Below, one piece after another: positions 43,159 through 62,675 of a stretch of DNA of 64,000 bases. Origin of the DNA: Neoalteromonas arenosi (GTDB lineage: Bacteria > Pseudomonadota > Gammaproteobacteria > Enterobacterales > Alteromonadaceae); contig NZ_JAUCBP010000006.1 in the NCBI RefSeq assembly GCF_030362855.1, positions 326,336 to 390,335 on the forward strand, read 5' to 3'. Positions within the stretch are counted from its first letter, which is position 1; every line of letters begins with the position of its first letter. The translations under genes were made by a program, and so were the position numbers. The notes below the pieces were generated by a model. That model saw only the letters and a list, made by a program, of their open reading frames with translations. It ran no database searches and was not told the origin of the DNA.

Positions 43159-43959
43159 TTAGCTCAGCAAACTTAAAACCTGCCCTTGTTGCTGATTCGC
43201 CTGCGCTTGCACGCTCAACGCTGACTGACCTAAAACACCCGCGGCGGCGTTTTCAGATGTCGTTTGCGCGAAATCAGTGTCTTGAATACGACTACGAGCG
43301 GCAGCAGTGTTGACATCAGTTTGCGACAAGTTACGCGCAGCACTCTCGAATTGGTTTTGTGTTGCACCAAGCTCTGAGCGCGCACCACCAATAAACTCAA
43401 GCGCTTCATCAGTCGCCGCTAGGGCTTCTTGCAAACCTTCGCTGGACGTCACATCGACATTGAGTAAATCGGTCAATTGTGATTGTACATCATTGGTACT
43501 GACTGATATCTGCTGGCCTGCGTTTGCGCCCACTTGGAAATCAATATTACCGTCTTCACTCAGTAGCTGACGACCGCCAAAGGTAGTTTGCTCAACTGTT
43601 TGTGTGATATTTTCTTGCAGTTGCGTTATTTCAGCTTGAATCGCCTGACGATCAGCATCATTTAATGTGCCATTGCCCGCTTGCAAGGTTAATTCACGAA
43701 TGCGCTGCGCATCGTTATTGATGCCTTCTAAGCCACTTTCAGCAACTTGAGCCAAGGACACGCCATCATAAGCATTGCGAATAGACTGGCGGTTGCCTTC
43801 TACTTGAGACGTCAATCGGTCAATGATTTGCTGTGCAGCGGAATCATCAGCCGCACTGTTGACACGCCGCCCCGTGGCTAAGCGCTCTAACAACGTGTCT
43901 TGACGCTGTTGCACCTGCTGTAAAATTGACGCATTTGAATCTGTATTGAAATTAATCAT
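43159..43959 (-). CDS. Short, divergent flagellin
   Basis: This 266-aa protein has the N-terminal flagellin helix region (RLATGRRVNSAADDSAAQQI, then NAYDGVSLAQVAESGLEGIN) and the C-terminal one (RIQDTDFAQTTSENAAAGVL, ending QANQQQGQVLSLLS). The middle is short, so variable D2/D3 domains are missing or minimal. The N-terminus (MINFNTDSNASILQQVQQRQ) and the RLATGRR sequence differ from the usual RLSSGLR. GAGGGGG lies just before the ATG. It is the only flagellin in the window; others may exist elsewhere. Confidence 0.92.
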   Translation of the reverse strand: MINFNTDSNASILQQVQQRQDTLLERLATGRRVNSAADDSAAQQIIDRLTSQVEGNRQSIRNAYDGVSLAQVAESGLEGINNDAQRIRELTLQAGNGTLNDADRQAIQAEITQLQENITQTVEQTTFGGRQLLSEDGNIDFQVGANAGQQISVSTNDVQSQLTDLLNVDVTSSEGLQEALAATDEALEFIGGARSELGATQNQFESAARNLSQTDVNTAAARSRIQDTDFAQTTSENAAAGVLGQSALSVQAQANQQQGQVLSLLS

Positions 43960-43991: not shown

Positions 43992-44044
43992 AAAGGACGA
44001 ATAAAAATTAAACAATGTTGCCTGAGACAGGTATTAATTGATAT

Positions 44045-44108
44045 ACCTACGTATAACCAGCGAGAGCTAAAGTAGTGGGCTTTGCTGAGCAGTTGGTTAT
44101 ACGTAGGT
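44045..44108. repeat. 15-bp perfect inverted repeat between flagellin and glycan genes
   Basis: ACCTACGTATAACCA (44045-44059) and its exact reverse complement (44094-44108) are separated by 34 nt. It starts 6 nt past the stop of the cytidylyltransferase gene. No T-run follows on the minus strand, so it is an unusual terminator if it is one. Confidence 0.85.
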
Positions 44109-44114
44109 TAGGAT

Positions 44115-45263
44115 CTACTGAGGTCCTTCTGGATACACATGGGCTACGTCAGCACGACTCACGGCTAAGCGAATGGCCGGACCATTTCCAGTGGCGGTAA
44201 TTTTGTGTACTTTGTTTTTCGGCATAAATACAAAATCACCTTTTTTGACGATAGATTCTTTACCTTCAATTTCCCAGATCCACTCACCATCAATGATATA
44301 CCACCATTCGTTCCAGTCTGGGTGATAGTGCTTGCGATTGCCTTGACCTGGCAATTGTGAAATCAGCGTAGCGCTATTACTTTCGGTATTGACTAAGCGA
44401 TGACACCAAGAGTTAGTATTGTTTTTGGCAGCAATTAAGTCCGGAATATGCACATGTGGTGCATTCTCATGGTCAAAGTCGGCCTGTTCGATGCCGTCTA
44501 TTTTAAGTATAGAAGGCACATCAGCTTCACTGTGATGCGCAGTTGTATTTCCTTTACTTTGGTAATACTTGGGTTCGCTTGCTTCCCCCTTCTGCGCCAA
44601 ATACGCCAGAACCGCTTCTGCCAAGCGGAAATCTTCTTCATTGTCGATATCCACAGCAGAAAAACCCTTTAACGGGAAATAGCCTATCTTGCCATCACCG
44701 CCATGGTAGCCAAAACCTAGGTTATCCATATTCTGTAGGAACTTTTCTCGTTGCCAGCCCATAAGCACCGTTGCATAAGACGCTACGGGTTGCATATCCT
44801 GCGATGAGATATGCGGCTCAAGTGGACTAAAGTTCACACCTTTGTTTTGATAAACACACGCAATTTGATGCTCTACGGTTGAAACCAATGTATCAACTTG
44901 TTGCTCTTGCATAGCGTTTACGAACGCTTGTATTTCTTCAGCCGAGATAAAGGGTGATGTTGGCAAAATTTGCACAACAATATCGGCATCGACGTTTTGA
45001 CAAAAGTCGAGCAAAAACTCGTCGTTATTTGAGGCATCAGTAGCAAACTGATCCGGGCGCTGGTAAAAACTGACGCCATAATCTTCAGCCAATTCGGCAA
45101 AGATTGGGGCTTCTGAATTAATATAAACAGCATCAAACACCCCGGCATCTCTAGCGGTTTCGGTCACATACGCGATGAGGGGCTTATCGCCAAGCATCCG
45201 TAGATTTTTTTTCGGAACTCGCTTGCTGCCCAAACGAGCTGGAATCATTGCCACAATTTTCAT
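44115..45263 (-). CDS. Acylneuraminate cytidylyltransferase-like protein fused to a cupin
   Basis: Residues 1-225 match CMP-sugar synthetases (PARLGSKRVPKKNLRMLGDK, QILPTSPFISAEEIQAF, DIDNEEDFRLAEAVL), which activate 2-keto acids such as Neu5Ac or pseudaminic acid with CTP. Residues from about 265 form a cupin (HYHPDWNEWWYIIDGEW, GDFVFMPKNKVH) that could be an isomerase, epimerase or binding domain. The fusion is unusual. It is the last gene of the glycan block and is nearest to flagellin. No NeuB/PseI synthase is in the window, so the activated sugar is uncertain. Confidence 0.85.
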   Translation of the reverse strand: MKIVAMIPARLGSKRVPKKNLRMLGDKPLIAYVTETARDAGVFDAVYINSEAPIFAELAEDYGVSFYQRPDQFATDASNNDEFLLDFCQNVDADIVVQILPTSPFISAEEIQAFVNAMQEQQVDTLVSTVEHQIACVYQNKGVNFSPLEPHISSQDMQPVASYATVLMGWQREKFLQNMDNLGFGYHGGDGKIGYFPLKGFSAVDIDNEEDFRLAEAVLAYLAQKGEASEPKYYQSKGNTTAHHSEADVPSILKIDGIEQADFDHENAPHVHIPDLIAAKNNTNSWCHRLVNTESNSATLISQLPGQGNRKHYHPDWNEWWYIIDGEWIWEIEGKESIVKKGDFVFMPKNKVHKITATGNGPAIRLAVSRADVAHVYPEGPQ

Positions 45264-45274
45264 TTACAGACTTC

Positions 45275-45982
45275 CTATTTACTTGTAAAGCCACCATCAA
45301 TGATGATGTTTTGACCCGTGATGTATGTATTTGCTGTTGAACATAAAAACACACACGCCTGGGCAATTTCTTCTGGTTGCGCTAATCGCTGTATTGGTAT
45401 TTGTTCCGCGATTACGCGTTGTTCACTATCACTCAACCACTCTTCAACCATGTCGGTTAAAGTGGGCCCCGGTGACAACGTATTTATCAGCACCCCACAG
45501 CTTGCCAGCTCAACAGCTAAAGACCGCAAAGCACCAACAAATCCCGCCTTACTTCCTGAGTAAACCGTAGAATTGGGTTTAGAAACGATTGAAGCTATGG
45601 ATCCGATGCCGACAATCTTGCCACCACCTCTTTGGCCCATTAAGCTCCCTGCCAGCGCTAAAATCCGAATGGGTGCGTGCAGATTAACTGCCATAACATC
45701 GTCAATCGTTGCTGTTGTAATCTTATCGGCCGGTTCAGGAAAAATTATACCCGCACAATAAATAACGACGTCGTAGCTGAAATCCTGTTCTAGCCAATGA
45801 CAAAACGCATCAACGCTGGCGCTATCTGCAAGATCTAAGTGTTTGATAGAATCTTGGCCGTCAGCATGGCGCGACGTACCAATTACGTTTGCGCCAGCGC
45901 TGTACAATTGTTCTTTGACTGCTTTGCCAATGCCCCGTTCACTGCCAATAATCAGTACGTTTTTATCGTTAAACTCATGCAT
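45275..45982 (-). CDS. SDR-family oxidoreductase
   Basis: This 235-aa short-chain dehydrogenase has the dinucleotide motif IGSERGIGKAV (a variant of GxxxGxG), catalytic YSGSKAGFVG (Tyr-x3-Lys) and a C-terminal TGQNIIIDGGFTSK. It likely oxidises or reduces a hydroxyl or keto group on a sugar or cyclitol intermediate. It lies 11 nt upstream of the cytidylyltransferase-cupin gene. Confidence 0.85.
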   Translation of the reverse strand: MHEFNDKNVLIIGSERGIGKAVKEQLYSAGANVIGTSRHADGQDSIKHLDLADSASVDAFCHWLEQDFSYDVVIYCAGIIFPEPADKITTATIDDVMAVNLHAPIRILALAGSLMGQRGGGKIVGIGSIASIVSKPNSTVYSGSKAGFVGALRSLAVELASCGVLINTLSPGPTLTDMVEEWLSDSEQRVIAEQIPIQRLAQPEEIAQACVFLCSTANTYITGQNIIIDGGFTSK

Positions 45983-45998
45983 GCTTAAATCCTGGCGT

Positions 45999-46916
45999 TT
46001 ACCGCAAGTGTTCGACTAAATGCGCGATCGCTGAGCGCCCCATAGCCAGCGTAGCTTCTTTGGAATTACCACCAATGTGAGGGGTACAAATTAGATTTGG
46101 CATGGACAGAAGTTCTGGGTGCTGTGGTGGCTCTTGGTCATAAACATCAATTGCTGCCGCAGATATCTGACCTGTTTCTAAGGCCCGTTGTAGTGCCGGT
46201 AGATCAATTAAATCACCTCGAGCGGTATTGAGCACAATCGGCGCACGTTGCATTGCAGCGAATGCCGATTTATCGAATAGATGAAATGTTGAATCATCCA
46301 ATGGTGTATGCAGTGAAATGATATCCGCTCGCGCATATATCTCAGTTTTACTGGCTAGCTGTGCTCCGAACGCATCACATTGTGTGGATACGTCAATGAT
46401 GTCATTGACCAATAAACGACAGTTAAATGGCTGTAAAATCCGCGCTAACTCTTGACCAATGTGCCCAAAGCCAATAATACCAATCGTCTTGCCATATAAA
46501 CTTTGGCCGCCCGACTTATTCCATGTCCCGGCCTTTAACTGATTTGAGGTCACATATAAATTGCGGCTCAACATCAGCATAAAGCCCAGAGCCATTTCCG
46601 CTACGGATTGCTTATTAACCCCCGCTGTCCACTTAACGGGTATGTTTTTACTACGACAGTAGTCCAAATCAATATTGTTAAGACCCACGCCAAATTTAGC
46701 GATGACTTTAAGTTTATCCAGCGTATCTAGTACTGGCGCTACAACCTCCTCCATAGCGACTATTGCGCCATCACAATCGGTTAAAAACTCGATAAATTCA
46801 GTTTCAGTTAGCAAACGCCCGGTTGTGTTGAAGCGACAGTCTTCGAAATGGGACTCCACTTCCTGACGCAGAGTTGGGTTATTGGCGAATGCTTTTGAAG
46901 TAATCGCTACTTTCAT
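45999..46916 (-). CDS. D-isomer-specific 2-hydroxyacid dehydrogenase
   Basis: The 305-aa protein has the NAD motif IGIIGFGHIGQELARIL and the catalytic trio Arg in LNTARGDLID, Glu in DVYDQEPPQHPEL and His in CTPHIGGNS. Family members (SerA-like, glycerate and formate dehydrogenases) act on 2-hydroxy/2-keto acids. Its place between a sugar-phosphate cyclase and an SDR suggests it makes or reduces a 2-keto acid in the pathway. It overlaps the cyclase gene by 4 nt. Confidence 0.88.
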   Translation of the reverse strand: MKVAITSKAFANNPTLRQEVESHFEDCRFNTTGRLLTETEFIEFLTDCDGAIVAMEEVVAPVLDTLDKLKVIAKFGVGLNNIDLDYCRSKNIPVKWTAGVNKQSVAEMALGFMLMLSRNLYVTSNQLKAGTWNKSGGQSLYGKTIGIIGFGHIGQELARILQPFNCRLLVNDIIDVSTQCDAFGAQLASKTEIYARADIISLHTPLDDSTFHLFDKSAFAAMQRAPIVLNTARGDLIDLPALQRALETGQISAAAIDVYDQEPPQHPELLSMPNLICTPHIGGNSKEATLAMGRSAIAHLVEHLR

Positions 46917-47980
46917 GAAACCCTCAACAAGGGTAAAACCGTGGCAATCGCGTTGTCTACCTCAAGCGGCGTTACATCGTCAGCTTTAATTGCCTCGATA
47001 GTATCGCTACTAGGAATGATCATGGTCAGATCTTTACCCACCCGCTTCTTGTCATTTTTCAAACATTCAACGATCGCTTCAGCACCGAAATGGTCGGCCT
47101 GAAAGGTGATGGGTAATGTGGGCAAAAACAAGCGTTTGTTCACGTCAGTGAAAAACTCATCGCTAATCAACCCGCGACCTAAGGCAACAGCATTGGCGAC
47201 CATCATACCGACTACTACAGCTAACCCGTGAGGCACTGCATAGTGGCTTGTTGCTTCTAGTGCATGCCCAAAACAGTGACCGTAGTTGAACAAATTGCGT
47301 TTCCCCAAATCAAACTCATCTTCGGCGATAAAGCGTTGTTTTACGGCTAGTGACGAGCGAATGGCCTCAATTCGATTGCGACGGTCATACAAGGCCTTGG
47401 CAAGTTTCTCGATAGCTTGAATGTCCGGCGCTTGCAGATCATCGAGGAGTAAGAACTTAATCACCTCGCCTATGCCACTGTAATAATCTCTATCCGAGAG
47501 TGAATCGAGGAAAGCGGGACACATGTAAATGGTATTGGGAGGATAAAACCCGCCGAGTATATTTTTATAGCTCTCGAAGTTAAGCGATGTTTTGCTGCCT
47601 ACGCAGCTATCCGCTTGAGCTAAGAATGTCGTCGGGAGAAACGACCAAGGCACGCCGCGGTACAAAGTTTGCGCGACAAACCCCGTGATATCCTGAATGA
47701 TGCCACCGCCAATCGATATTAAATGCATTTTCTTCTTTTCAGGAAACGGGGTTAGAAAGCGATAAACACCTTGGACTTTATCCAGTGTTTTGTTTTCCTC
47801 AATTGCCTCAATCAACATTACACGGTGCGACGCCACCCCAGATAGTAATGAAGGATACAAAGCAGCTATTTGGGCATCACAAACGAACACCGCATTGGGC
47901 TGCGCTTTTAAGGCGTCAAAAAAGGCGAAATCAGCTTCAAACTTCACTTCGTAGTTATGAATATTCGATTGAATAATCAT
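46913..47980 (-). CDS. 3-dehydroquinate synthase-like sugar-phosphate cyclase
   Basis: This 355-aa AroB-like protein keeps NAD and metal motifs of the family: GGGIIQDITGFVAQT, FLPTTFLAQADSCVGSK, YYSGIGEVIKFLLLDD and GHCFGHALEA. The usual HGEAV is HGLAV here. Family members cyclise DAHP (AroB), sedoheptulose-7-phosphate (EEVS and related) or glucose-6-phosphate (DOIS). It is not in an aro context, so I think it is a dedicated C7 (or C6) cyclase for surface glycan. Substrate cannot be read from these motifs. Confidence 0.85.
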   Translation of the reverse strand: MIIQSNIHNYEVKFEADFAFFDALKAQPNAVFVCDAQIAALYPSLLSGVASHRVMLIEAIEENKTLDKVQGVYRFLTPFPEKKKMHLISIGGGIIQDITGFVAQTLYRGVPWSFLPTTFLAQADSCVGSKTSLNFESYKNILGGFYPPNTIYMCPAFLDSLSDRDYYSGIGEVIKFLLLDDLQAPDIQAIEKLAKALYDRRNRIEAIRSSLAVKQRFIAEDEFDLGKRNLFNYGHCFGHALEATSHYAVPHGLAVVVGMMVANAVALGRGLISDEFFTDVNKRLFLPTLPITFQADHFGAEAIVECLKNDKKRVGKDLTMIIPSSDTIEAIKADDVTPLEVDNAIATVLPLLRVS

Positions 47981-48630
47981 TAGCTCGTAAAACCTCCATC
48001 AACAATGATTGATTGGCCCGTCAAGTAGGCAGTCTCAGGTTCGATAAGAAATGCAACTACTCGAGCGATTTCATCTGGCGTGGCCATCCGTTGGGCTGGA
48101 ATTTGCGCAATGATTTCTTTTTTCTCTGATTCAGACAGTGACTGCTGCGTTAGTTCAGTTTGGGTAAACCCGGGACAAACCGCGTTTACCGTAACATTAC
48201 TAGCGGCAAATTCACGAGCAAACCCTTTGGTTGCGCCAATCAAGCCAAACTTGGTGCCGCTGTACAGGGCACGTTGGGCTTTAGAGCGAACTCCCCATAT
48301 AGAACTGATGTTGACGACACGCCCAAAGCTTCTTTCGGCCATGCCAGGCAAAATAGCTTGCATTAACTGCAATGGCGCTAAATAGTTAACCTGATTAATC
48401 AATTGCATATCAGCATCGGTAATTTGCGCGGTCGGTTTGATAATATTAATGCCCGCGTTGTTTATTAGGCCATCGAATTGATTGCCATTCTCGAGAAAAC
48501 GAGCAACGCTTGTCGGTGAACTCAGATCCAGTTCATCGCGTGTTGGGCATACCACATGGTGTTGTGATTCGAGTCGAGACTTTATCGCAGCGCCAATTCC
48601 GCGACTGCCTCCAGTGAGTAAAATTTTCAT
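47980..48630 (-). CDS. Second SDR-family oxidoreductase
   Basis: This 216-aa short-chain dehydrogenase has ILLTGGSRGIGAAIKSRL, GLINNAGINII, catalytic YSGTKFGLIGATKGFA and TGQSIIVDGGFTS. It resembles the SDR at 45275 in its C-terminus but is shorter. Its stop base is shared with the cyclase start, so coupling is likely. It probably acts on the product or precursor of the cyclase. Confidence 0.86.
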   Translation of the reverse strand: MKILLTGGSRGIGAAIKSRLESQHHVVCPTRDELDLSSPTSVARFLENGNQFDGLINNAGINIIKPTAQITDADMQLINQVNYLAPLQLMQAILPGMAERSFGRVVNISSIWGVRSKAQRALYSGTKFGLIGATKGFAREFAASNVTVNAVCPGFTQTELTQQSLSESEKKEIIAQIPAQRMATPDEIARVVAFLIEPETAYLTGQSIIVDGGFTS

Positions 48631-48633
48631 AAA

Positions 48634-49650
48634 CTAATTGTCGTAAAAGCCACTGACCGCGTAGATGTCTTCAATCAATGACAAAACTTTTAACGCGTCT
48701 TCACTATTGCCATTGGGCAGAGGTTGATCATTGAGTATTGCCGCGACAAACTCAGCGTGCTCAAGACGCCAACTGTCATCATTTTCAAACCACACGGTTT
48801 GCTCGGCCGGCTTACCCATTGCAAAGGTGATGTCTTCGAACTCGCGCTTCCCAGTAACGAGTTTTTCCGGGGCATAACTTCTCGACTCAGATAAGATACC
48901 ATCGAGATTGATAAAACCATTCTCAAAGCACATTTCAAGCAGGAACTTATGCTTCCACTGCGTTGCACTGCTGTGCAAGGTCGCAATCACGTCGCCTGAT
49001 TTGAGGGTTACAAAGGCATTGTCCTCAACGTCGACATCCCAATAACCTTTGGATAGTTGAGCCGCCGTCACGTCAAACGATAACCCGCTCAAATGATGGA
49101 ACAAATCAAGCATGTGAATGCCTTGGTCCATCAAGATGCCGCCGCCGCTATAGTTTTTAAAGTTACGCCAGTTCTCGTGATAATCGATGCTACCCGCTTT
49201 ACCATAAACACCACGCATCCAAATCAGACGGCCAAATTCACGGCGTTCAATCAGTTGCTTCGCTTGACTAACGCTATAGTGTAAACGGTGGTTAAATCCG
49301 TACTTAAGTACTCGATCTGAGTCTGCTTCAGTCGCAATTACAGTAGCAAGTTCGGCTGACGTCTTAGCCGGTGGTTTTTCACAGAAAACGTGTAAACCTT
49401 TTTCTAAGCCTTGCTTGGTGTATATTGCAGCGACATTGTTAAACGCGCACACAAATAATGCATCAAGGTCGGCATTGAGCAATTCGTCAAAGGATTGGCA
49501 TTGGGTTACCGCGGAGGGAATATTAGCGGCGTAATCAGGATTAGTTTCAAAAACTGCAGTCAGCACAGTGTCGGGATGATGCGCGATTTCTCGCGCACGA
49601 ATTTGTCCCATTTTGCCAAAACCGGCAATCCCGCATTTCAGCTGGGCCAT
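48634..49650 (-). CDS. Gfo/Idh/MocA family oxidoreductase
   Basis: This 338-aa protein has the N-terminal Rossmann motif CGIAGFGKMGQIRA and the family EKP motif in GLHVFCEKPPAKTSAE. The C-terminal domain contains SGGGILMDQGIHMLDL with the conserved His. Members act on sugars, inositols or their nucleotides with NAD(P). Inositol dehydrogenase-like activity would suit a cyclitol intermediate. Confidence 0.88.
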   Translation of the reverse strand: MAQLKCGIAGFGKMGQIRAREIAHHPDTVLTAVFETNPDYAANIPSAVTQCQSFDELLNADLDALFVCAFNNVAAIYTKQGLEKGLHVFCEKPPAKTSAELATVIATEADSDRVLKYGFNHRLHYSVSQAKQLIERREFGRLIWMRGVYGKAGSIDYHENWRNFKNYSGGGILMDQGIHMLDLFHHLSGLSFDVTAAQLSKGYWDVDVEDNAFVTLKSGDVIATLHSSATQWKHKFLLEMCFENGFINLDGILSESRSYAPEKLVTGKREFEDITFAMGKPAEQTVWFENDDSWRLEHAEFVAAILNDQPLPNGNSEDALKVLSLIEDIYAVSGFYDN

Positions 49651-49652
49651 AC

Positions 49653-50243
49653 TTAACCTACGTCTTTTAACTCAGCACTTGATTGTAAATGTTGATAGTA
49701 AGAAAAAATCACGTGATCAACCATCATGTGCAGATCTTCTACCACACCATAATCACCTTTCTCCGTAGCAACGTGGAAAACGTGATCAGCATCTTTGCGC
49801 AGTTCGCCACCATCAAATCCGGTAAGACCGACAACAGGAGTACCGATTGATTTAGCGTATTTAACCGCTTTAACGATATTGGGCGAGTTTCCGCTACAGG
49901 AAATACCAATAAGTAAATCTTCAGGCTTTAAGCGCCCTTCTAGCTGTGTGCTGAAAATATTTTCATAACCCGTGTCATTAGCAATTGCAGTACACACTGA
50001 CACATTGTCACCTAAGCTCTCTACGTCAAATTGGCGGATCCCGCGTAATTTCAAACCGACTGCCAGGTCATTTGCCATATGTGACGCTGTGGCTGCACTG
50101 CCACCATTACCCATAACGAAAATACGACCAGATGCAGCATGACAACGCTCGAGCGCTTGAATAATGTCAACGATCTCCTGTGGATCGATGCGCGACAACA
50201 CTTGCTTAATTCTTTCAATATAGCCCTGCACAAAACTTAGCAT
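49653..50243 (-). CDS. SIS-domain isomerase, GmhA (phosphoheptose isomerase)-like
   Basis: The 196-aa protein has FVMGNGGSAATASHMANDL, ISCSGNSPNIVKAVKYAK and the C-terminal VEDLHMMVDHVIFSYY of GmhA-type isomerases, which turn sedoheptulose-7-phosphate into D-glycero-manno-heptose-7-phosphate. The ATG at 50243 is used, as AGGGG lies 7 nt before it. Sedoheptulose-7-phosphate is also a substrate of some AroB-like cyclases, which gives a link with 46913. Confidence 0.85.
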   Translation of the reverse strand: MLSFVQGYIERIKQVLSRIDPQEIVDIIQALERCHAASGRIFVMGNGGSAATASHMANDLAVGLKLRGIRQFDVESLGDNVSVCTAIANDTGYENIFSTQLEGRLKPEDLLIGISCSGNSPNIVKAVKYAKSIGTPVVGLTGFDGGELRKDADHVFHVATEKGDYGVVEDLHMMVDHVIFSYYQHLQSSAELKDVG

Positions 50244-50253
50244 GGTATTCCCC

Positions 50254-51561
50254 TTAAACTGTATCAATAAGGTATATCTGTTTTATTTTATCGTCGGAAA
50301 TTCCAACTTCTGAAGTTAAATATTTCCTGATCGCTTGTTCTCGCCCTAACACACAGATCAAAACCACGTCGTATTCGAGCTGTTTTAGTCTTCTCGGATC
50401 CTCAACAAATTCCCACTGTTGATAGTTCAAATCCACGGTGCAAATCACACTATCTTCGAGTAACGGAGTTATCAACCGTCGAAAATGACTATTGCCATAT
50501 AGCACGATCCGATGATACTCGGCTTGCAGTTGCGTCAGTTGTTCGATGACGGTGTTGAGCTGCTTGCTAAAGCGCAGCAGAGCCGCCTCGTTGGCGCCAC
50601 CAGAATCATGCTTAACCTTATCTGACATTGACGCAGAATAGAAGCATTGACGTAACTTTAGCAGCGTTGGTTGGTCGTCAATGTTATCGAAAAAATCAAA
50701 GTCGTCGAATTTATAACCAAAGCGCATAAAGCGCTGCTGAATTTTCTCAAAACGTTGTAACGCAGCGGCAGAATATTGATTGTCTAATTTTTTTACTAAG
50801 GCAAGTGCACATAGCGCCAAACGCTTTTTGAACGCCTGCGGCTCAGCTTCTTCTTGATTGGCAAGCCATTCGCGCGTTTGTTCCAACATCCAAAACATAT
50901 CCTCGATATTTTTGTCTGATAACACGTTGGTTAATGACTCTGCAGCAACGTAATAGTGATACAAAGGTTCTTTTATGACCTGCACATTATTCGCATGCCA
51001 ATACAACTTGTAGCTTGTGGCTAAATCCTCATAAACCCTATGCTCTGGAAAACCTATGCCGTAGTCCTTAAACAATGCCAGCGAAAACACGCGAGAGCAT
51101 GCTGAACTGTCGCTTTCGCAGCGCAATACTCTTGCATAATTACCCGTCACACTGCGTCGCATGCGCCAAATATATTGTCCATCCGGTGCACGCCGCTCGT
51201 AATCGAACTCAATAATGTCGGGGTGTTCTGCATGAATGATTGTGAGGAGCTTTTGCAACGCTAGAGGGGCTAATTGATCGTCACTGTCGACAAACATAAC
51301 GTAGCTACCCGTAGCCGCGCTGACCCCAGTATTACGCGCGCCCCCCAAGCCTTTGTTTGATTGATTTAGCAAGCGCGAGTTGGGAATATCGCGCAAAGTA
51401 CGCTCCACAAGCTCCGGCGTGCTGTCTGTCGAGCCATCATTGACGACAATCAGCTCGCACTGTTCAAAAGCCGTTTGATTAACGATGCTACACAAAGTCG
51501 CTGAAACCGAAGTTTCAGCGTTAAAGGCCGGTACGACAATACTGATGTAGGGCTGAGTCAT
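50254..51561 (-). CDS. Family 2 glycosyltransferase with extra C-terminal domain
   Basis: The 435-aa protein has a GT2 fold (YISIVVPAFNAETSVSATL, VVNDGSTDSTPELVERT, metal-binding DSDD in MFVDSDDQLAP, and RVYEDLATSYKLY). The C-terminal third holds a Rossmann-like part (YHRIVLYGNSHFRRL) of unknown role. The ATG at 51561 overlaps the upstream stop (ATGA). Donor and acceptor are unknown. Confidence 0.85.
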   Translation of the reverse strand: MTQPYISIVVPAFNAETSVSATLCSIVNQTAFEQCELIVVNDGSTDSTPELVERTLRDIPNSRLLNQSNKGLGGARNTGVSAATGSYVMFVDSDDQLAPLALQKLLTIIHAEHPDIIEFDYERRAPDGQYIWRMRRSVTGNYARVLRCESDSSACSRVFSLALFKDYGIGFPEHRVYEDLATSYKLYWHANNVQVIKEPLYHYYVAAESLTNVLSDKNIEDMFWMLEQTREWLANQEEAEPQAFKKRLALCALALVKKLDNQYSAAALQRFEKIQQRFMRFGYKFDDFDFFDNIDDQPTLLKLRQCFYSASMSDKVKHDSGGANEAALLRFSKQLNTVIEQLTQLQAEYHRIVLYGNSHFRRLITPLLEDSVICTVDLNYQQWEFVEDPRRLKQLEYDVVLICVLGREQAIRKYLTSEVGISDDKIKQIYLIDTV

Positions 51562-53474
51562 CGCTTCTGGCAAATGAGCATTTGTGTCGCCTGATGATAG
51601 TTTGTGACGCGATGGTCAATCACGTCAAATGCGCTATCGATATAGCGTCTGAATTCGGCAAATCCCCATTCGCGTTGATGCGCCTTGTTGCGCGGCGGCC
51701 CGAGCTGGAAAGGTGAATCTGGCGGGTAGACCAAATCGCGATCAGGGGTTGATAAAATCAAGTACTTGAACTCTTGATGCTGTAAAAAGCGCAGTAAGTC
51801 ATCTGGATCAACCAAGTGCTCAATCACATCTGAACACACTACAACATCAGCACTAAATTGATGCTCAGTAGTAAACTCTGACACCTGCCAATTGTGCTCT
51901 GGATACTTTTTCCGCAGTGTTTCAACATTGACTGGCAATTCTAATCCCAGCGTATCGTAATCACCTAAGTACTTGATGAGCTTATATCCCGAACCTGCGC
52001 CGACATCGACAATGCGCTTGAACCCGTGAGTTTTCATCAAGCCCAATGCATGTAAATAGACCTCCAGTTGCCACTCGTCTTCGCAGTCAGTATCGTCGTA
52101 GTGATGATATTCCGTGCGCGATACATAATGACTAGGTAACTCAAATGTTTTCGGCGGTGCAAATGACACATGACTGCGTTCTTCGATGAGAGTTTTAACC
52201 CGCTGGGCTGCTAAATCTGAAGGAGCAACGGCTGCTGGCAAGTTACATTTGCGCGCCAAGAATTGTGCTGCCTTTTTGCGCACGTCGACGCGTACCGCAA
52301 GATTGTGAGCTATTGCTTTGGCCAAGTCTTGTTCGTTATCAACAATATCAAACGCCCCCATTGGATCGTTATACAGCTTAACTTGCTCACCGTGCGGGTT
52401 AAAGTAGATGACGGGTTTACCCAAGGCCAACGCTTCAATTAATACTGTACTAAAACGCGTTATGACAAGTGAGGATTCGGCGATTGTTTTATAGACCGAC
52501 GTGGTAGAAACTTTATCCGCGGGCAATTCCCCTTTGTCCGCAGGATGCTGTGAGATGATAAAATCAGCGCCCGCTTGATCACATGCCGCAATAGCTTGAG
52601 ACACCCAACCATCTCGCGCTTCTTCAAACGAACCGTAAGTAAAGTTTACATTTAACATTACGCGTGGCGTATCGGGCTCGTCGACCGGCCGATGATACAT
52701 AGCAAATAGTTTGGGTAAGCCAACAACTGTGCATTTGTCCGCCTTGTTAGTCAGGAATTTTAAATCGTCACTGCCCATGGTCATCACATATTCGACGGTT
52801 TGATAGGCGTTGCGATCATAGCTGTAGTCGGTATCCTCGAAATCTTCGATACCATCAACCATACCAATAGTGAGAATACCGCGCTCTCGCTCGCTTTGAA
52901 TGAATGGTCGCCCGAATGCTTGTTCCCAGTCGATCGATGCTACAACACAGCGACGATTAACATTAGCTAATGCATCACGGCGCACGCGGGGAATATCGCT
53001 GTTCTGTTGATACCCATGGGTCACGTCTGATTCTGGGCCGCCGCCAATATCGATGATCGCAGAACGGATATTTATTTTACTTAACGAACGACTCAGTAAC
53101 GACATATCCGTTACATTTGAACGATTAAACGGCAGCAGCAATACATCGTAGTCGTTCGAAGCGTTCAACAGTGCCTCAAAGTCACTGACCGCAATATATT
53201 GAAAAGAAGCGGTGTCATAAACAAATGCGGGCGCTGCAAAATTGGTGGCGATTTCACGCCAATAGTTCGGGCTATTGATGACGATACAATCTGCCGCGTT
53301 TGCAGCAGTGATATCAACACCGTCTGCACTTTGCTTATATGAGTCAAAGAAGCCAACTACATTGGCGCCGGTGGCTTCTAAATCCGCCTTCATCTGGCGA
53401 GTGAGATCGTTATCTGGTGCGAGTACTATCGATTTATTGGCAAAAAAGCTAATGGGTTTAAACTGATCTTTCAT
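51558..53474 (-). CDS. GT-B/CDP-glycerophosphotransferase-like and methyltransferase fusion
   Basis: This 638-aa protein appears to be two enzymes. Residues to about 430 include a region resembling CDP-glycerol glycerophosphotransferase/KpsS-type GT-B transferases (DFIISQHPADKGELPADKVS and SSLVITRFSTVLIEALALGK). From residue 485 a SAM methyltransferase follows (FKRIVDVGAGSGYKL, VVVCSDVIEHLVDPDD). The first domain assignment is weak, the second strong. It may transfer and then methylate a glycan unit. An 88-nt gap separates it from maf. Confidence 0.72.
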   Translation of the reverse strand: MKDQFKPISFFANKSIVLAPDNDLTRQMKADLEATGANVVGFFDSYKQSADGVDITAANAADCIVINSPNYWREIATNFAAPAFVYDTASFQYIAVSDFEALLNASNDYDVLLLPFNRSNVTDMSLLSRSLSKINIRSAIIDIGGGPESDVTHGYQQNSDIPRVRRDALANVNRRCVVASIDWEQAFGRPFIQSERERGILTIGMVDGIEDFEDTDYSYDRNAYQTVEYVMTMGSDDLKFLTNKADKCTVVGLPKLFAMYHRPVDEPDTPRVMLNVNFTYGSFEEARDGWVSQAIAACDQAGADFIISQHPADKGELPADKVSTTSVYKTIAESSLVITRFSTVLIEALALGKPVIYFNPHGEQVKLYNDPMGAFDIVDNEQDLAKAIAHNLAVRVDVRKKAAQFLARKCNLPAAVAPSDLAAQRVKTLIEERSHVSFAPPKTFELPSHYVSRTEYHHYDDTDCEDEWQLEVYLHALGLMKTHGFKRIVDVGAGSGYKLIKYLGDYDTLGLELPVNVETLRKKYPEHNWQVSEFTTEHQFSADVVVCSDVIEHLVDPDDLLRFLQHQEFKYLILSTPDRDLVYPPDSPFQLGPPRNKAHQREWGFAEFRRYIDSAFDVIDHRVTNYHQATQMLICQKR

Positions 53475-53562: not shown

Positions 53563-56500
53563 TCAACCGCGCTGCAATCCATAGTCATCAGTGATAAGTG
53601 GAATCAATCCATCGCGCAGCTGCTGCGCAAATGTCTCGGCTTTATCCAACGGATAAACCGAACGGATTAGCGCTTCAAGCAGGATTGGATGCCCTACCGG
53701 TCGCCCAGCATTCATCGCTTTGTCAACCAAGTTTTCTGCGTCTATTGCAGCTTCAAACGGTATGTATAGATAGTATGGAAATTCGATGTATTGATTAAAT
53801 TCGCTAAAGCATTCAACCAATTGCAATAACTCCGGATTGCGTTCTTGATAATTTTCAACAAACGTCAGTTTGGGAATCACTATCGTATTAACGAGCTCTT
53901 CTTCAACTGCCCTCGCACCGTGCATAACGTGCATCGGATCGACGTAATAACTGCGGTTTCCGGTAAGAAATTCGGTCACTTGACTGTCACAGCGGATTGC
54001 ATCATGAGCAAACACCATGGCGAGGTTAAGTGACTCGTATGTTTGTCTAAGTCCCTGAAAAGCCGACAAGTCATGGGTGACAATAACAATTTGTGGGGGT
54101 TGCTCGGTGCTAGCTGCCATACGCAAGTCTTGATGCACTTGATCTAATGGTATGGTGTCCATGAAAATCAAAAGTGCATCAACATCTGCTGTATTAGTTT
54201 GATTGTCGACTACCACTAACTTGGGCGCTACTTTAGCTAAGATCCGCGTGGTTTTCTCTTGATAGTTCGGTGTAACTCGCACCATGGTACGTCGTTCAAC
54301 TAGATTCCGCTCAAGATAGATTTGTTCGCGCTGATGGTGAAGCGAATGAGCGAAATCATAGCTATTCGCAAAACACAGATACTCTGATTCAACGGCACGC
54401 AACATCTTTTGCCACGCATGCACAGCTTTCATCAGCGGCGACGCCTCGCCGCCGTCACTGTCAGCCGAATCACCGAGAGAAATCAGCTTACTAAATACCG
54501 CATGCGCATAATTACTACTGCCATAAATCAGATAAAACAACAATGAACGACCGGATTGATAGCTGTTATGCAACGTAACTTTGGTTTGGCTGATTAAGCT
54601 TTCCACGTCAATTTCGTCGGCTAAACACTGTGTCGTCAAACTTATCAGGTGCGCGATCTCTTTCTTTAATAACTCAAGCGAGTAGCGATGCCCAAACTTC
54701 TGCTGGTAATCCCCTTGCTCGCCCACGCCCTTAAAGCAGTTAGTTTTGATTGCCGCGAGTGCTGACTGCTGTTCAGTTGGTGATGAGGTAATTAGCACAT
54801 CTTCCAAACGCAACGGACTAGTGCCAGCGATTCTCGCTCCGTCTGAGCAATTAAAACTTTCAACAGTATGCGAGCGCAAAGAAAGCTCAAGAATATCTTT
54901 TGCAATTTTAAATTCGTACTTGGTTGATACAACCTTACGAAAATTACCCGCCACTAATAATTGCGAACGATTTTTGCGTTTGTAATCATACAGCTGTACG
55001 CCTTTGTCATCGTAATATCCGCTGAGTTTCGAATGATGGGATTCCCAATCAATAAACCCCAAATCAACGCCCAAAAAGTAAAGTTGATGAAAACCCAGCT
55101 CGAGAAATAAATTGACGACAAAATTGGTCACGGTTGGAAACGCGAATTCGAGTGTCGCCCATTCATCGGCCAACAGCTTTTGCGCTGACACCGTCGAAGA
55201 CTCTCCTTCCTTGAAAGCCAGCATAGTATCTTTAAATAACGCGGCAGTGTGCGGGTGAATGCCATTGCATGACAACAAGGTTATAGATTTTAAAAACTCA
55301 AACGCATTGATCCGCGAGTTCCAATCAAAAGTGGCGCGATTCTGCTCAATCTCTGCGTGAAAGTCTGGTGTAATTCCACTGCGATAAAGTACTTGTAAAG
55401 CAGTACCACAAGATACCACGATAACGTTTTCGCGCTCCGCTTTAATCAGTTCAATAGACTGATCAAGCGATGGTCCATTACCGACAACAAAAACAGGAAC
55501 ATCGCGGTGGGCAAGACTCAACGAGGTAGAGGCGTTCTTTATTAAAAATTTAGCGCCGTCGTTAATTAATGCACTGGTATGTGTTATGCCGAAACGCGCG
55601 TGATCAAAACACTCACCCATAGCAATAACCACTTGAAGCTGCTCGCGCAGGTGATTGACAGCATCGACTAAATCCGACCTAAAATAACCTTGATAGAAGA
55701 ACGTATTGGCCAACATATATGGCCCAATCGCATAGAACTGATTGAGTAAATCTCGAAATAGGTTCTCGCCATTATCACCAATGTTCAGATATATGCGACG
55801 CTCAGTAGCGTCGATATCTTTCAATAGCGAAGACCAATCTAAGGCGAATAAGCTGGCGTAAAAAAAGTCTGGGTCAGGTTCACAAATGAATAAATTTTGA
55901 ACTTCGTGAGCAGCGGTTAATTCCTGTAGTGAATAGCCTTGCAACAAGCCGAATAAAATTAATGATTGGACGTTTTCTGGCAGTTCATTGCGCTTTTCTT
56001 CGGTGTCTTCGAGTAACACTTCGGTGGCTTTAACAAAGCGATAATGAGTATAGGCTTTTAATTTTTCACCATCGTACCCCAAGATCAAACCATCTTTGTT
56101 GGGAAAGCGTTTGAACGTCTCATAACTGTTGTGACCGTCTTGTTCTGCACCATTGACAGAATAGACTTCGGCCAGTGTTTTATGCACTAACTCCACACTG
56201 CCTGCCGCATTTCGCATGGGTAACCATTGTTTCGGCTTATAGTCACCAAACTGGTTAGCTAAGTCTGGAAAGTACTCCTTAAACGCAATCATGTTTTGCT
56301 GAAAACGATGATCGTCTAACGGACTAATTTCCGAGAAGTTCTCACTCTGCAACGACCGAGTCCATCGAGGTAGTGACAACGAGGATGTCTGATAGAGATT
56401 GAACGGCAGTGGTTTAGACTTTAACTCCGCCCAAGAGTGCGCCAAAAATTCCTGCTGGATGGCATTAAATACGGTGTTATTGCAGTGCTTGTAAATATAC

Positions 56501-57111
56501 ACAGAGCTTGCATTAGTATGCTCAATAAGTTCCGTTAAATCGCTGATAATGTTCGCGCCGCTCTCGCCCACTTGAAAATAGATTGACGTATTTTTTTGTT
56601 GCGCAGCTTTGAGAATTTCGCGCCAATCGCAGCTGAGTAATGAGCCTTTAAACAATGATGTTTCTGGCTCATAAATGACCAAATGTCGGATCGTATAATC
56701 ATTGATCAAACGCTGTAAGTGATAACCTAACCCAACCCCCAAAACCACTACGCATTCAGATATTTCCGTAGGCTCCTGAGGTGGGTGTATGGTAGTCGAA
56801 TGAAACTCAACAAAGGGCAATCGGTGGATATGCGTGCGATATTGTTCTTCGACCTCTTGTCTGGGGGACTGCCCATAAAAAACACTCCCGGTGGTGACAT
56901 CGACAAAATTCATCTGCCCAGATTGATTTAAAAATACGCTAATCGCATCCTCGCTATGCCTATTTAAATGCGCCAGTACGTTTGGGGCATAGAGTTTGAA
57001 CGCGCGAATGTTTTGGCGCTGCCGCAGATCGAGTTCGCTGCTGAGGTTTGATTCAATAGCAGTTTGAGTTTGCTCATCAAAATCTAAGTGCGCACGAATA
57101 TTTTGATACAT
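53563..57111 (-). CDS. maf: Maf-type flagellin glycosyltransferase (6-hydroxymethylpterin pyrophosphokinase MptE-like domain)
   Basis: Maf proteins transfer pseudaminic or legionaminic acid-like sugars to flagellin in the cytoplasm before export. This 1182-aa protein has the MptE-like core from about residue 537 (VPVFVVGNGPSLDQSIEL, CGTALQVLYRSGITPDFHAE). Two related nucleotide-fold domains precede it, at 115-210 (VVLGVGLGYHLQRL, IYEPE) and 380-475 (LILFGLLQGYSLQEL, CEPDP). Most Maf proteins have one. Residues after about 850 form a helical C-terminal part plus a further domain that I do not recognise. Confidence 0.85.
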   Translation of the reverse strand: MYQNIRAHLDFDEQTQTAIESNLSSELDLRQRQNIRAFKLYAPNVLAHLNRHSEDAISVFLNQSGQMNFVDVTTGSVFYGQSPRQEVEEQYRTHIHRLPFVEFHSTTIHPPQEPTEISECVVVLGVGLGYHLQRLINDYTIRHLVIYEPETSLFKGSLLSCDWREILKAAQQKNTSIYFQVGESGANIISDLTELIEHTNASSVYIYKHCNNTVFNAIQQEFLAHSWAELKSKPLPFNLYQTSSLSLPRWTRSLQSENFSEISPLDDHRFQQNMIAFKEYFPDLANQFGDYKPKQWLPMRNAAGSVELVHKTLAEVYSVNGAEQDGHNSYETFKRFPNKDGLILGYDGEKLKAYTHYRFVKATEVLLEDTEEKRNELPENVQSLILFGLLQGYSLQELTAAHEVQNLFICEPDPDFFYASLFALDWSSLLKDIDATERRIYLNIGDNGENLFRDLLNQFYAIGPYMLANTFFYQGYFRSDLVDAVNHLREQLQVVIAMGECFDHARFGITHTSALINDGAKFLIKNASTSLSLAHRDVPVFVVGNGPSLDQSIELIKAERENVIVVSCGTALQVLYRSGITPDFHAEIEQNRATFDWNSRINAFEFLKSITLLSCNGIHPHTAALFKDTMLAFKEGESSTVSAQKLLADEWATLEFAFPTVTNFVVNLFLELGFHQLYFLGVDLGFIDWESHHSKLSGYYDDKGVQLYDYKRKNRSQLLVAGNFRKVVSTKYEFKIAKDILELSLRSHTVESFNCSDGARIAGTSPLRLEDVLITSSPTEQQSALAAIKTNCFKGVGEQGDYQQKFGHRYSLELLKKEIAHLISLTTQCLADEIDVESLISQTKVTLHNSYQSGRSLLFYLIYGSSNYAHAVFSKLISLGDSADSDGGEASPLMKAVHAWQKMLRAVESEYLCFANSYDFAHSLHHQREQIYLERNLVERRTMVRVTPNYQEKTTRILAKVAPKLVVVDNQTNTADVDALLIFMDTIPLDQVHQDLRMAASTEQPPQIVIVTHDLSAFQGLRQTYESLNLAMVFAHDAIRCDSQVTEFLTGNRSYYVDPMHVMHGARAVEEELVNTIVIPKLTFVENYQERNPELLQLVECFSEFNQYIEFPYYLYIPFEAAIDAENLVDKAMNAGRPVGHPILLEALIRSVYPLDKAETFAQQLRDGLIPLITDDYGLQRG

Positions 57112-57206: not shown

Positions 57207-58991
57207 TTAAAAAACTGTCGTATTGTTGAGCGACTGTAAGTTCCAATTTTTGTCAGGTGTACGCCAATCGCCGTAATGGGTAGTCAGATAGTCGTCTGTT
57301 TGCGCTGGTATCGGATACGAAAATCCGTCTATTACTTGTGTTGATAACTGACGAGAGAGCGCGGCCGGCATTCTAATCCCTCGGCTTGCCAAGCAATAAT
57401 CACTGTGTTGTTGGTCTGCATATTTGACAAAAAAATCAATGCTAGGCAAGTCTTGCTTGTCTTTACAACACAACTTGAACGAGCGCAGTGCGCCTGCAGG
57501 CACGTTGCCAAACCCTTGATCTGTGTATAACACCTGTAAGTCCCAATGCGATCGACATACACGTGCAAGTTCTTGCTGGAGTGCTGCCAATGCCACTTTC
57601 AACTCGTCAAGCTGAGCACTACTGACCGCAAAGTCGAGGTCATCATCCCACGGGATTAAGCTATTATCGCGGTATAGACCTAACAGGGTGCCAGCGTCAA
57701 TATGGAAATACAGGCCCGATTGTTCAAGCTGCTGACAACATAGTTGCAGGATACGAATATTGGCTCCGCTGTGCGTCCCCGAGTCAGCAAAGGTCGTTGC
57801 GGTCATCATTCGCGCCGGGATATTGCGTACTTTACTGGGGGTAACGCCAAAGCGTTCAAGGAGTTCCCCTTGAATTTGCTCGAAGTACTCACTGGCGACA
57901 AAAACTGCATCAACATGCCGAAACCGCTCAGTTTCTGGAGCATTAATGGGTAAACCTTGAATCATTGAACCGTGTTTATCACTGTCATTGTCAATAAATC
58001 CGAGTACATCATATTGCTCCTGAATATGAGACAGCGAGCGCTGCCCTGCCAAACCCGCACCAAAGATCAATGCGCGCGGTTTTACCTGCTCAGTTGCAAC
58101 TTTATCTGTAGCCATAAGTGTGCCCTTTGCCATCGTCAAACGCCGTTTTGCTTCAGCTAGATAGCCGGGATAATCTGAGCCTATCGCATTGGCAATCTTG
58201 TTGAGCACTGTTTCGACAGTCTTAAAACGTGTCGGACAGTTGTAACAAAAGTCCATGTAATGTTTAACTTCTTCATCCGTTAATTCTAGGCCAGCGGTAG
58301 ACAAAAACTCTGTGAAGCGCAGTCGATATTGGCGATCGCGTAGCTCTTCATGTTGATATATCACCGAATCACTGTGCTGACGATAGTGATACAAATCTTC
58401 CTGCACATTGTGTAGCGTGACATTGGACTGCCCCACCAACCTAAATAAGAAATCTAAGTCTTCGATATGAGTGTATTGCGGTTGAAAAGGATGGCCTTCA
58501 AACACTTCACGGTCAGCGAGTAAACTCGCGTGAATTAATGGACAACGGCCAAAGAACGCCAACATGCGGATATCGTTATCGTGCTCGCGATAATGCCATA
58601 CAGCCTGTTTAGCACCAAAAAGCGAAACCCAACAGCCCACAGCTGCTGGTCTTGAAAGTGTTTGGATAGCGGCGAACTGCTGAGCCAATCGCTGTGGCGC
58701 TGATAAATCATCGGCATCCATGCGGGCCAGCAATGGCGCTGTAGACCATGCTGTCAGCTCATTAAGCGTTGCAACCAGTCCTCTATTTTCCCGCGACTTT
58801 ACCCGTATACGCGGTTCTTTTTCTTGCCACTTTTGAGCTATAAGTAAAGAACTATCGGTCGAACCATCGTCGAGTATTAACAGCTGCCAATCGCGTAGTG
58901 ACTGATCAACGATACTCTGGATCGCGGCGTCCAAATGCTCACCAGCGTTGTAGACTGGCATAAGAATTTGAATTTCCACGCTATCGCTCAT
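57207..58991 (-). CDS. GT2 - Rossmann - LicD-type fusion protein
   Basis: This 594-aa protein has three parts. A GT2 domain (residues 1-230) shows IQILMPVYNAGEHLDAAI and DADD at 92-95. A Rossmann-like domain lies at 305-390 (ALIFGAGLAGQRSLSHI, GFIDND). A LicD-like nucleotidyltransferase fold follows from about 405 (IDAGTLLGLYRDNSLIPWDD DLDFAV, written with a gap). LicD proteins transfer phosphocholine or related groups to glycans. It overlaps the LuxC-like gene by 4 nt and precedes maf by 95 nt. Both transfer activities are inferred. Confidence 0.82.
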   Translation of the reverse strand: MSDSVEIQILMPVYNAGEHLDAAIQSIVDQSLRDWQLLILDDGSTDSSLLIAQKWQEKEPRIRVKSRENRGLVATLNELTAWSTAPLLARMDADDLSAPQRLAQQFAAIQTLSRPAAVGCWVSLFGAKQAVWHYREHDNDIRMLAFFGRCPLIHASLLADREVFEGHPFQPQYTHIEDLDFLFRLVGQSNVTLHNVQEDLYHYRQHSDSVIYQHEELRDRQYRLRFTEFLSTAGLELTDEEVKHYMDFCYNCPTRFKTVETVLNKIANAIGSDYPGYLAEAKRRLTMAKGTLMATDKVATEQVKPRALIFGAGLAGQRSLSHIQEQYDVLGFIDNDSDKHGSMIQGLPINAPETERFRHVDAVFVASEYFEQIQGELLERFGVTPSKVRNIPARMMTATTFADSGTHSGANIRILQLCCQQLEQSGLYFHIDAGTLLGLYRDNSLIPWDDDLDFAVSSAQLDELKVALAALQQELARVCRSHWDLQVLYTDQGFGNVPAGALRSFKLCCKDKQDLPSIDFFVKYADQQHSDYCLASRGIRMPAALSRQLSTQVIDGFSYPIPAQTDDYLTTHYGDWRTPDKNWNLQSLNNTTVF

Positions 58992-60187
58992 CGCACATTT
59001 ACCACGCGTGTTAGTCCACTGAGTAAATCAATACCATCCCACAGATAATTAAAATCCAGTGCTTCACCGATTGGTACTACGCGATCAATCCCGGTGTATT
59101 GCGGCGCGGTGAGTATTGTGGCAATTTCCTCTGACTGATAACCCGCGTAGGTTAAGGTCTGAAACCTATCAGTAATATATGCGCCAATATCACTGGGTTG
59201 AGTAACGGGTATCACAATAAAGCACCACTGCCCCAAATGTTGACTTATAACTGCTTCAGGCTGTTGAGTCACTATTGCTGTTATTTGACCGCGCCAAATA
59301 ACTTCAGCGCCATTGTTGGCTGCCGCATACTGACTGAACACCAGTTGTTCGTTAGCACGGGTGAGCGAAGGCTGAATTTGTTCGTTTAACAATTCGGCTA
59401 ACGATTCTAGTAACGCCGTTAAAGCGCTCGTACTTCCTTGCCAAAATATCATCCGTGGCGATGAACAGGCTTGTTGGTCATAGGGCAATGTATCGCGTAA
59501 TAGCCGCTGTGCCGTATGGGCAATTTTATCGTTATTGTCGAGTTCATCACCGTTGAGAATAGCGGCTGATACGCGATCGGCAAAACAGATATCTCGTGTT
59601 CGCGGTTTCGCAGCATAGGCACGAATGCTATTTACACTGGTATCGCCTCCCCAGATCACGCGCGCATCCGCAATTGCACTCAATCTTGCTGTCCAATTAC
59701 TGGTTTTTGGGTATTGGACAAATTTATTGCGTGCAGCCAGCTGAGCAAACTCTGGCAATTGCAAGAGTGCATTAATGGCGTTGATGAGTGCAGATTGTAT
59801 AGGCGTTACCTGAGATGCTAAGCGGACAATGTTTTTATTTCCCAGTAGTAAGCCGTAACACCAGCTGTAGACAAACATAGTATCCACATTACCCGGGGCA
59901 AAATGCACAGTTAGCCCAATCGGCTTATGCAATTGGGCATCAGACTGTGCTGTCAGAGGACAACTGACATTGCGAAGCCAAAATCCCAATGCCACAATCT
60001 CAGGGAAGTTTTTATTCTTAGGGTCGAGTAGGCTTTTCGATAACGCTTTAACAAAACTCAAGGCAATAGCGTCCTTAACCGGCATACAACTAGCGGCTTG
60101 AACTTCATTAAGCCAATCGCAATCGGAGCCGAACGACGGAGCTAATAGCGTTATGTCATCTTTATCTGTTGGTGGGTATTCATTCAT
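58988..60187 (-). CDS. LuxC-like acyl-CoA/acyl-enzyme reductase
   Basis: LuxC family proteins (PF05893) reduce an activated acyl group to an aldehyde using NADPH. The 399-aa protein shows LTVHFAPGNVDTMFVYSW and the nucleophile Cys241 in YDQQACSSPRMIFW. The ATG at 60187 is used since the longer frame would run 113 nt into the LuxE-like gene; the overlap is then 8 nt. There is no luxA, luxB or luxD here, so light production is unlikely. Confidence 0.82.
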   Translation of the reverse strand: MNEYPPTDKDDITLLAPSFGSDCDWLNEVQAASCMPVKDAIALSFVKALSKSLLDPKNKNFPEIVALGFWLRNVSCPLTAQSDAQLHKPIGLTVHFAPGNVDTMFVYSWCYGLLLGNKNIVRLASQVTPIQSALINAINALLQLPEFAQLAARNKFVQYPKTSNWTARLSAIADARVIWGGDTSVNSIRAYAAKPRTRDICFADRVSAAILNGDELDNNDKIAHTAQRLLRDTLPYDQQACSSPRMIFWQGSTSALTALLESLAELLNEQIQPSLTRANEQLVFSQYAAANNGAEVIWRGQITAIVTQQPEAVISQHLGQWCFIVIPVTQPSDIGAYITDRFQTLTYAGYQSEEIATILTAPQYTGIDRVVPIGEALDFNYLWDGIDLLSGLTRVVNVR

Positions 60188-62662: not shown

Positions 62663-62675
62663 AGGTGTTGCCGCA

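Follow-up and report, generated by a model that had tools for sequence, protein, structure and literature searches.

Positions 44115-50243 of the 64,000-nucleotide stretch of the Neoalteromonas arenosi genome analyzed here (hereafter the window) carry seven adjacent genes, among them one for an AroB-like cyclase, which are best read as a self-contained and exchangeable module. We give an even chance to the proposition that this module makes a second sugar, activated with cytidine monophosphate (CMP), for a flagellin heteroglycan in which pseudaminic acid (Pse) comes first. An earlier note on the window had described the genes as adjacent and tightly packed, and both its coordinates and its account of their content are borne out by the open reading frames and by Pfam. 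Its further proposal of a new activated-sugar pathway survives in part: the cyclase is not the housekeeping enzyme and a third cytidylyltransferase lies in a conserved module, but the pathway does not replace nonulosonic acid (NulO) synthesis, for which a complete Pse pathway is found next door.

The module and its cyclase family

The seven genes are separated by gaps of 2-16 bp or overlap by 1-4 bp, and in order of transcription they are:

49653..50243, minus strand: SIS-domain sugar-phosphate isomerase, GmhA-like (PF13580/PF01380)
48634..49650, minus strand: Gfo/Idh/MocA oxidoreductase (PF01408/PF22725)
47980..48630, minus strand: short-chain dehydrogenase SDR_a (PF13561)
46913..47980, minus strand: AroB-like cyclase (DHQ_synthase and DHQS_C; TIGR04425)
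45999..46916, minus strand: D-2-hydroxyacid dehydrogenase (2HADH), phosphoglycerate-dehydrogenase-like (PF02826/PF00389)
45275..45982, minus strand: short-chain dehydrogenase SDR_b (PF13561)
44115..45263, minus strand: CMP-transferase (NeuA/PseF-like) fused to a cupin (PF02348 and PF07883)

The cyclase passes TIGR04425 (424.3 bits, cut-off 400), a catalogued hypothetical family of AroB-related putative sugar phosphate phospholyases (cyclizing), and scores under the cut-off of the AroB equivalog TIGR01357 (243.7 bits against 305; the G952 member of the family reaches 292.5). A literature search found no publication for TIGR04425 itself and, among the matches listed, none that we recognized as describing this gene set. 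The genome has two DHQ_synthase genes, the second being an AroB on contig C11, placed in the tree together with the AroB from another genome of the genus (support 100/98); the situation that the earlier note had set against its own idea, a cyclase that is the sole aroB and falls with housekeeping AroB, is hence not the one encountered. TIGR04425 rows form a single group in three maximum-likelihood trees, holding eight, eight (after six rows were dropped) and ten of them (96/96, 73/93 and 85/91), and a larger group with three or four sister rows (100/99, 100/99 and 99/98). In an approximately unbiased (AU) test on 35 of 41 rows, six long, odd or duplicate ones having been dropped, a clade made of the eight family rows and the genome's own AroB is rejected (p-AU 4.2e-7), a rejection that may be partly due to the sister rows lying next to the family. 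The cyclase lineage stands apart from housekeeping AroB.

The module is co-inherited. Counting the genome of the window itself, the TIGR04425 cut-off is exceeded in 2/59 relatives, 4/395 genomes of the family, 3/355 of the order, 2/340 of the class and 5/398 of the phylum, and in one of four genomes reached through loci; these draws overlap and give ten genomes in total (G000, G005, G660, G662, G1148, G091, G073, G297, G952 and G794, the last represented by locus L003). A short-chain dehydrogenase gene adjoins the cyclase gene in all ten, a Gfo/Idh gene lies near it in eight, and SIS, 2HADH and CMP-transferase genes in seven each. The set of six enzymes (SIS, Gfo/Idh, SDR, AroB-like, 2HADH and CMP-transferase) is complete in six genomes (G000, G005, G662, G1148, G660 and G091); in G297 the contig ends just past the cyclase. 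SDR_b has a counterpart in G005 and G662, and the G1148 set is without a second SDR.

The CMP-transferase passes PF02348 (90.8 bits, cut-off 22.6) and fails the PseF model TIGR03584 (90.9 bits against 205.7), on which the neighbouring PseF scores 334; with a third enzyme that looks KdsB-like by eye, these two make up the cytidylyltransferases of the genome. Fusions of NeuA and cupin (E up to 1e-50) were found in 3 of 390 family genomes, which are those where the seven-gene set was seen; G1148 encodes the halves separately, in neighbouring genes. Cupin residues H312, H314, E319 and H353 are conserved in three homologues, presumably as the usual metal-ligand pattern. The transferase of the set is NeuA/PseF-like in G000, G005, G662, G1148 and G660, and KdsB-like in G091 and G952, where it scores above the cut-off of an NCBIfam subfamily of such enzymes; that different CMP-transferases accompany the same set suggests CMP activation as its goal.

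For the remaining genes, the top NCBIfam match of the 2HADH is phosphoglycerate dehydrogenase, under that model's cut-off, and the start of the isomerase gene at 50243 agrees with that of its G005 homologue, an upstream TTG at 50267 being less fitting. The catalytic motifs of all seven proteins look intact by eye. The seven genes have a GC content of 45.6%, against 46.4% for the window, which does not signal recent foreign origin. A search of viral contigs with a single-protein query, reaching close relatives only, returned 36 pattern matches and no relative, and the matches on plasmids (71 records) and phages (14) are all below 60% identity; those listed (40 of the 71 and all 14) are mostly annotated as aroB or unannotated, four plasmid neighbourhoods having been inspected.

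A second AroB-like context was observed in L003, L081, L082, L083 and L116, where the neighbours are a thiamine pyrophosphate (TPP) enzyme, an HpcH-type aldolase and an SDR, with nucleotide-sugar genes abundant by eye. This context perhaps makes branched higher sugars.

The island around the module

The earlier note had seen no NeuB/PseI synthase and no PseB or PseC. This holds inside the window, but directly beyond its end come PseG, PseI, a 332-amino-acid protein without Pfam match, PseF, PseC and PseB, with PseB, PseC, PseF, PseG and PseI each over its NCBIfam cut-off. NulO genes just past base 64000, which the note had held to be incompatible with its pathway, are thus present. PseI, at 1.2-2.3 kb past base 64000, is the only NeuB-family gene in the genome; the seven genes have no NeuB-family synthase of their own, nor do they include either of the two DAHP_synth_1 genes of the genome. 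Because a complete Pse pathway adjoins them, the seven genes appear additional to NulO synthesis, and the island is predicted from its gene content to make pseudaminic acid in the conventional way. The other genes of the island that bear on this reading are:

63661..64000, minus strand: PseH-like GNAT acetyltransferase, straddling the window end (the Pse genes run to about 70115)
57207..63404, minus strand: conserved island genes GT2-LicD, LuxC, LuxE, AMP-ligase and FabG-like SDR (same set in G001, G002 and G003)
53563..57111, minus strand: Maf flagellin glycosyltransferase (PF20157, PF01973)
51558..53474, minus strand: p638 (638 amino acids), putative glycosyltransferase region with C-terminal methyltransferase (PF13489)
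50254..51573, minus strand: glycosyltransferase family 2 (GT2) protein (PF00535)
43159..43959, minus strand: small flagellin gene on the far side of the variable cassette (63% in G005; 87% over 159 amino acids in G002)

The islands of G001, G002 and G003, which belong to the genus of the window, contain the Pse genes, the FabG-like, AMP-ligase, LuxE, LuxC and LicD genes and Maf, and have neither a TIGR04425 protein over the cut-off nor a NeuA-cupin fusion; different genes occupy that stretch, of which just the LicD side was read in G001 and G003. Maf adjoins PseB in G001 and G003, as it does in G005. In G005, G662 and G1148 the set itself lies beside flagellar regulators and Pse genes (over cut-off are PseG and PseI in G662, and PseF and PseB in G1148), so that a flagellar or Pse setting is found in four of the ten TIGR04425 genomes, belonging to four genera and two families. 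The earlier note had asked whether the set always sits near flagellin or maf, and it does not: the G660 copy is part of a locus for surface polysaccharide, among genes for Wzx-, Wzy_C-, Wzz- and Poly_export-type proteins, so that flagella are not the only setting of the module. One might then argue that it serves lipopolysaccharide or some other surface glycan and reached the flagellar island by chance insertion, and other copies do lie, by eye, among sugar and glycosyltransferase genes. Recurrence of the flagellar and Pse setting across those four genera, together with the presence of other genes in the same stretch of same-genus islands, makes this improbable in our view.

The island seems to be laid out like the Group II islands of Aeromonas, which, in the sections of PMC7874193 that concern us, share with it the Pse genes, FabG-like, AMP-ligase, LuxE and LuxC genes, a glycosyltransferase next to luxC, Maf and a variable stretch. 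The latter is described there as highly variable and lying between luxC and pseC, and Fgi-1 is reported to add the first heteroglycan sugar onto Pse (PMC7874193). Unlike the window module, the main text of that paper yields neither 'dehydroquinate' nor 'cytidylyltransferase' to a term search. A second moiety on top of a nonulosonic acid has also been reported for Shewanella oneidensis, where the species-specific sfmABCDE genes are needed for flagellin modification with a 236/250/264 Da moiety on a 274 Da nonulosonic acid; the products listed in the sections covered are a NeuB-like protein, a TPP enzyme, an SDR, a methyltransferase and an ATP-grasp protein, with no AroB-like cyclase or extra CMP-transferase among them (PMC3765264). 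Bradyrhizose was considered as a precedent and dropped: the gene list of PMC3899966, as far as it was available, does not contain 'dehydroquinate', and a search listing suggests that there is no AroB route.

Several further features of these islands were observed along the way. By eye, FliS, FliD and FlaG follow the Pse genes, and then four flagellins in a row (L066 13009-18012), an arrangement in which several flagellins may carry the glycan. The GT2 part is fused to the LicD part at 57207-58991 of the window and separate from it in G005 (two genes, L068 15718-17494), and in G662 the LuxE and LuxC homologues are merged in a 758-amino-acid protein (L080 4197-6473). At the other end, directly after the stop codon of the NeuA-cupin gene, an inverted repeat at 44044-44110 (15 paired bases, core TACGTATAACCA; RNA fold z-score -5.4; no T run) separates the cassette from the flagellin gene. 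Its core was found in 2 of 123 fetched loci, both being the same place of the window genome. The repeat may mark the operon end as a hairpin or be the scar of an insertion.

The cyclase pocket and the proposed product

The pocket of the cyclase appears to be of dehydroquinate synthase (DHQS) type. Of the 15 active-site positions of DHQS, in A. nidulans numbering, the window cyclase retains the DHQS residue at 14, position 260 having Asp instead of Glu. Asp 260 is shared by all but one of the 14 rows of the family and its sisters, and Glu is found in all 25 DHQS rows, a hand-chosen set of 22 loci (best match to 3okf) and three Protein Data Bank (PDB) chains in which two rows are identical; Glu is also present in three of five ungrouped rows (o_G1065, aro_Shalst and aro_Thermovirga). 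Arg 264 is invariant in the 14 family and sister rows and in the 25 DHQS rows. Both DOIS sequences have Ala or Gly at 264 and Glu at 268, where the window cyclase has Arg and Asn; ValA (4p53), the single reference for EEVS in this reading of the alignment, keeps Arg 264 and has Met 250, Asp 268 and Pro 275 against Lys, Asn and His. Arg 264 alone was hence dropped as a discriminator between DHQS and EEVS, the difference being carried by 250, 268 and 275. K250, R264, N268 and H275 are thus common to the window cyclase, the family rows and DHQS, and neither DOIS nor ValA has the full combination, in a comparison that covers these two out of a superfamily with DDGS, EVS and aminoDHQS as further members.

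Family members also differ from DHQS in their own way. The ten family rows agree with one another at fifteen columns where the commonest DHQS letter (at least 18 of 25 rows) is a different one; several of these columns lie near the pocket, where DSSIGGK becomes DSCxGSK and the residue after N268 changes from Leu to Tyr. An AlphaFold2 model built from 14 sequences (predicted local distance difference test, pLDDT, 90.9) has DHQS as its 19 best structural matches by E-value. The first ten of these have template modelling (TM) scores of 0.82-0.86, and they are followed by DOIS, ValA and DDGS at 0.77-0.84, so that the fold by itself does not discriminate DHQS from other cyclases. The window cyclase resembles AroB in fold and in 14 of 15 active-site residues, and is unlike it in its own tree group, the E260D change, the DSCxGSK loop, the SDR gene adjoining in 10/10 loci and a score under the equivalog cut-off. 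Further sugar phosphate cyclases, EEVS and DOIS among them, belong to the same superfamily, for whose names we follow PMC4426668, and would be expected to share the first chemical steps.

A DHQS-type pocket suggests a 2-keto acid with a terminal phosphate, and on sequence grounds it favours a DAHP-like (3-deoxy-D-arabino-heptulosonate-7-phosphate-like) substrate of this kind over sedoheptulose-7-phosphate (S7P). The earlier note had proposed direct, EEVS-like cyclization of S7P followed by oxidation, CMP activation and attachment by Maf, so that the product would be the primary flagellin sugar in place of a NulO. A GmhA-like isomerase in the operon is what such a route would call for; it falls below the gmhA cut-off (TIGR00441, 109.9 bits against 209) and departs from GmhA at the metal and catalytic site, where Glu is replaced by Asp and Gln by Glu in 6/6 aligned cluster copies, so that its substrate may not be S7P. 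With a pocket unlike that of ValA and a complete Pse pathway at hand, this route is very improbable, S7P remaining conceivable as an earlier precursor.

The substrate, the order of the steps, the ring in the final product, the target, the linkage and the transferase, all of which we infer from the gene set, would be as follows in the reading of a second, CMP-activated sugar. The SIS isomerase and Gfo/Idh enzyme would prepare a C7-type aldonate phosphate from a heptose phosphate, and 2HADH would oxidize its C2 to yield the 2-keto acid. The AroB-like enzyme would then oxidize this DAHP-like substrate, eliminate its phosphate and close the ring in the manner of DHQS. SDR_a would reduce the ketone of the ring, the product would be tailored by SDR_b and the cupin, and the CMP-transferase would activate it. 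The outcome would be a CMP-activated, probably ring-closed C7-type sugar acid reached by a route independent of NeuB. Six loci of the family or its sisters have HpcH/HpaI-type aldolase genes near the cyclase (G952, L003 and G870 by family search; G364, G215 and G399 by similarity), which, with a 2-keto-pentenoate-hydratase-like gene in G660 (E about 1e-10, far under cut-off), seem to fit 2-keto-acid chemistry. In G660 and G1148 the module also has DUF115 (Maf-core) proteins as neighbours, at no more than about 5 kb, which speaks for the reading as well.

If the AroB-like enzyme only oxidized its substrate and eliminated phosphate, the final product would instead be a deoxy or unsaturated ulosonic acid without a carbocycle, activated in the manner of 3-deoxy-D-manno-octulosonic acid or a NulO. 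KdsB-type enzymes normally act on 3-deoxy-ulosonic acids, and their replacement of NeuA-type enzymes in G091 and G952 points this way, as do the DUF115 proteins near the module in G660 and G1148, which suggest an ordinary CMP-ulosonate donor. The 14 retained active-site residues argue for closure, and we know of no DHQS homologue that stops before it; we consider this outcome unlikely, albeit a serious alternative.

Several observations weigh against a ring-closed flagellin sugar made by this module. G952 has an HpcH/HpaI aldolase in the place of SIS, which it lacks, and yet keeps 2HADH, so that the supply steps are unsettled. G073 and L003 hold just the SDR-cyclase pair of the set, to which L003 adds an aldolase-like protein and a TPP enzyme. 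No flagellar setting was seen in six of the ten TIGR04425 genomes. Within the pocket, E260D occurs outside the family (o_G844 and aro_NBC01768) and is absent in x_G870, where Glu stands, and G660 and G297 have His in place of K197. Esterified with CMP, a ring-closed tertiary carbinol, which has no ring oxygen, is not a normal glycosyl donor; either the product would have to retain or restore an anomeric keto group, or transfer would be unusual. The G662 stretch that was read has no homologue of p638, the predicted structure of which is unusable (mean pLDDT 38). Lastly, a wider AU test (ten family and four sister rows with the genome's own AroB, 40 rows) does not clearly reject a single clade (p 0.07). 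Coupled with the active-site identity to DHQS and the solved DHQS folds that top the structural matches, this last result could be taken to mean that the cyclase is a spare DHQS in an operon without dedicated product. The other AroB on C11 with its same-genus grouping, the score under the equivalog cut-off, the narrow AU rejection and the conserved gene set leave that idea hardly credible.

Candidate transferases and wider significance

Maf is expected to add pseudaminic acid, and p638 or the GT2 protein would attach the new sugar to the Pse so placed, p638 possibly methylating it as well. Of the two, the GT2 gene is not conserved with the module, no homologue being present between SIS and p638 in G005. 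Homologues of p638 adjoin the module in G005 (66%) and lie about 7 kb off in G1148 (47%), and the protein weakly resembles TIGR04396/BFO_1060, far under the cut-offs; it is a candidate transferase for the new sugar. Its assignment as a CMP-dependent transferase by fold was abandoned, given the poor model and a PDB profile search (E up to 1) that returned two methyltransferases only. The stretch that separates the module from the Pse genes in G1148 holds a DUF115 protein beside another CMP-transferase, which shares 49% identity with the one in the G660 module (L115 10510-12304).

To our knowledge, few routes lead to CMP-activated sugars, and nearly all of them involve a synthase that condenses phosphoenolpyruvate. 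It is possible, if on balance rather doubtful, that the module represents a new class of CMP-sugar acids independent of both NeuB and KdsA, in which a quinate-like carbasugar acid would be formed through DHQS-type closure of a 2-keto-acid phosphate and, by exchange of cassettes, come to be used on flagellin as well as on surface polysaccharides. Were CMP activation indeed reached through an AroB-family cyclase, the hypothetical TIGR04425 family would gain a testable pathway, and flagellin and polysaccharide glycans a chemically new sugar.

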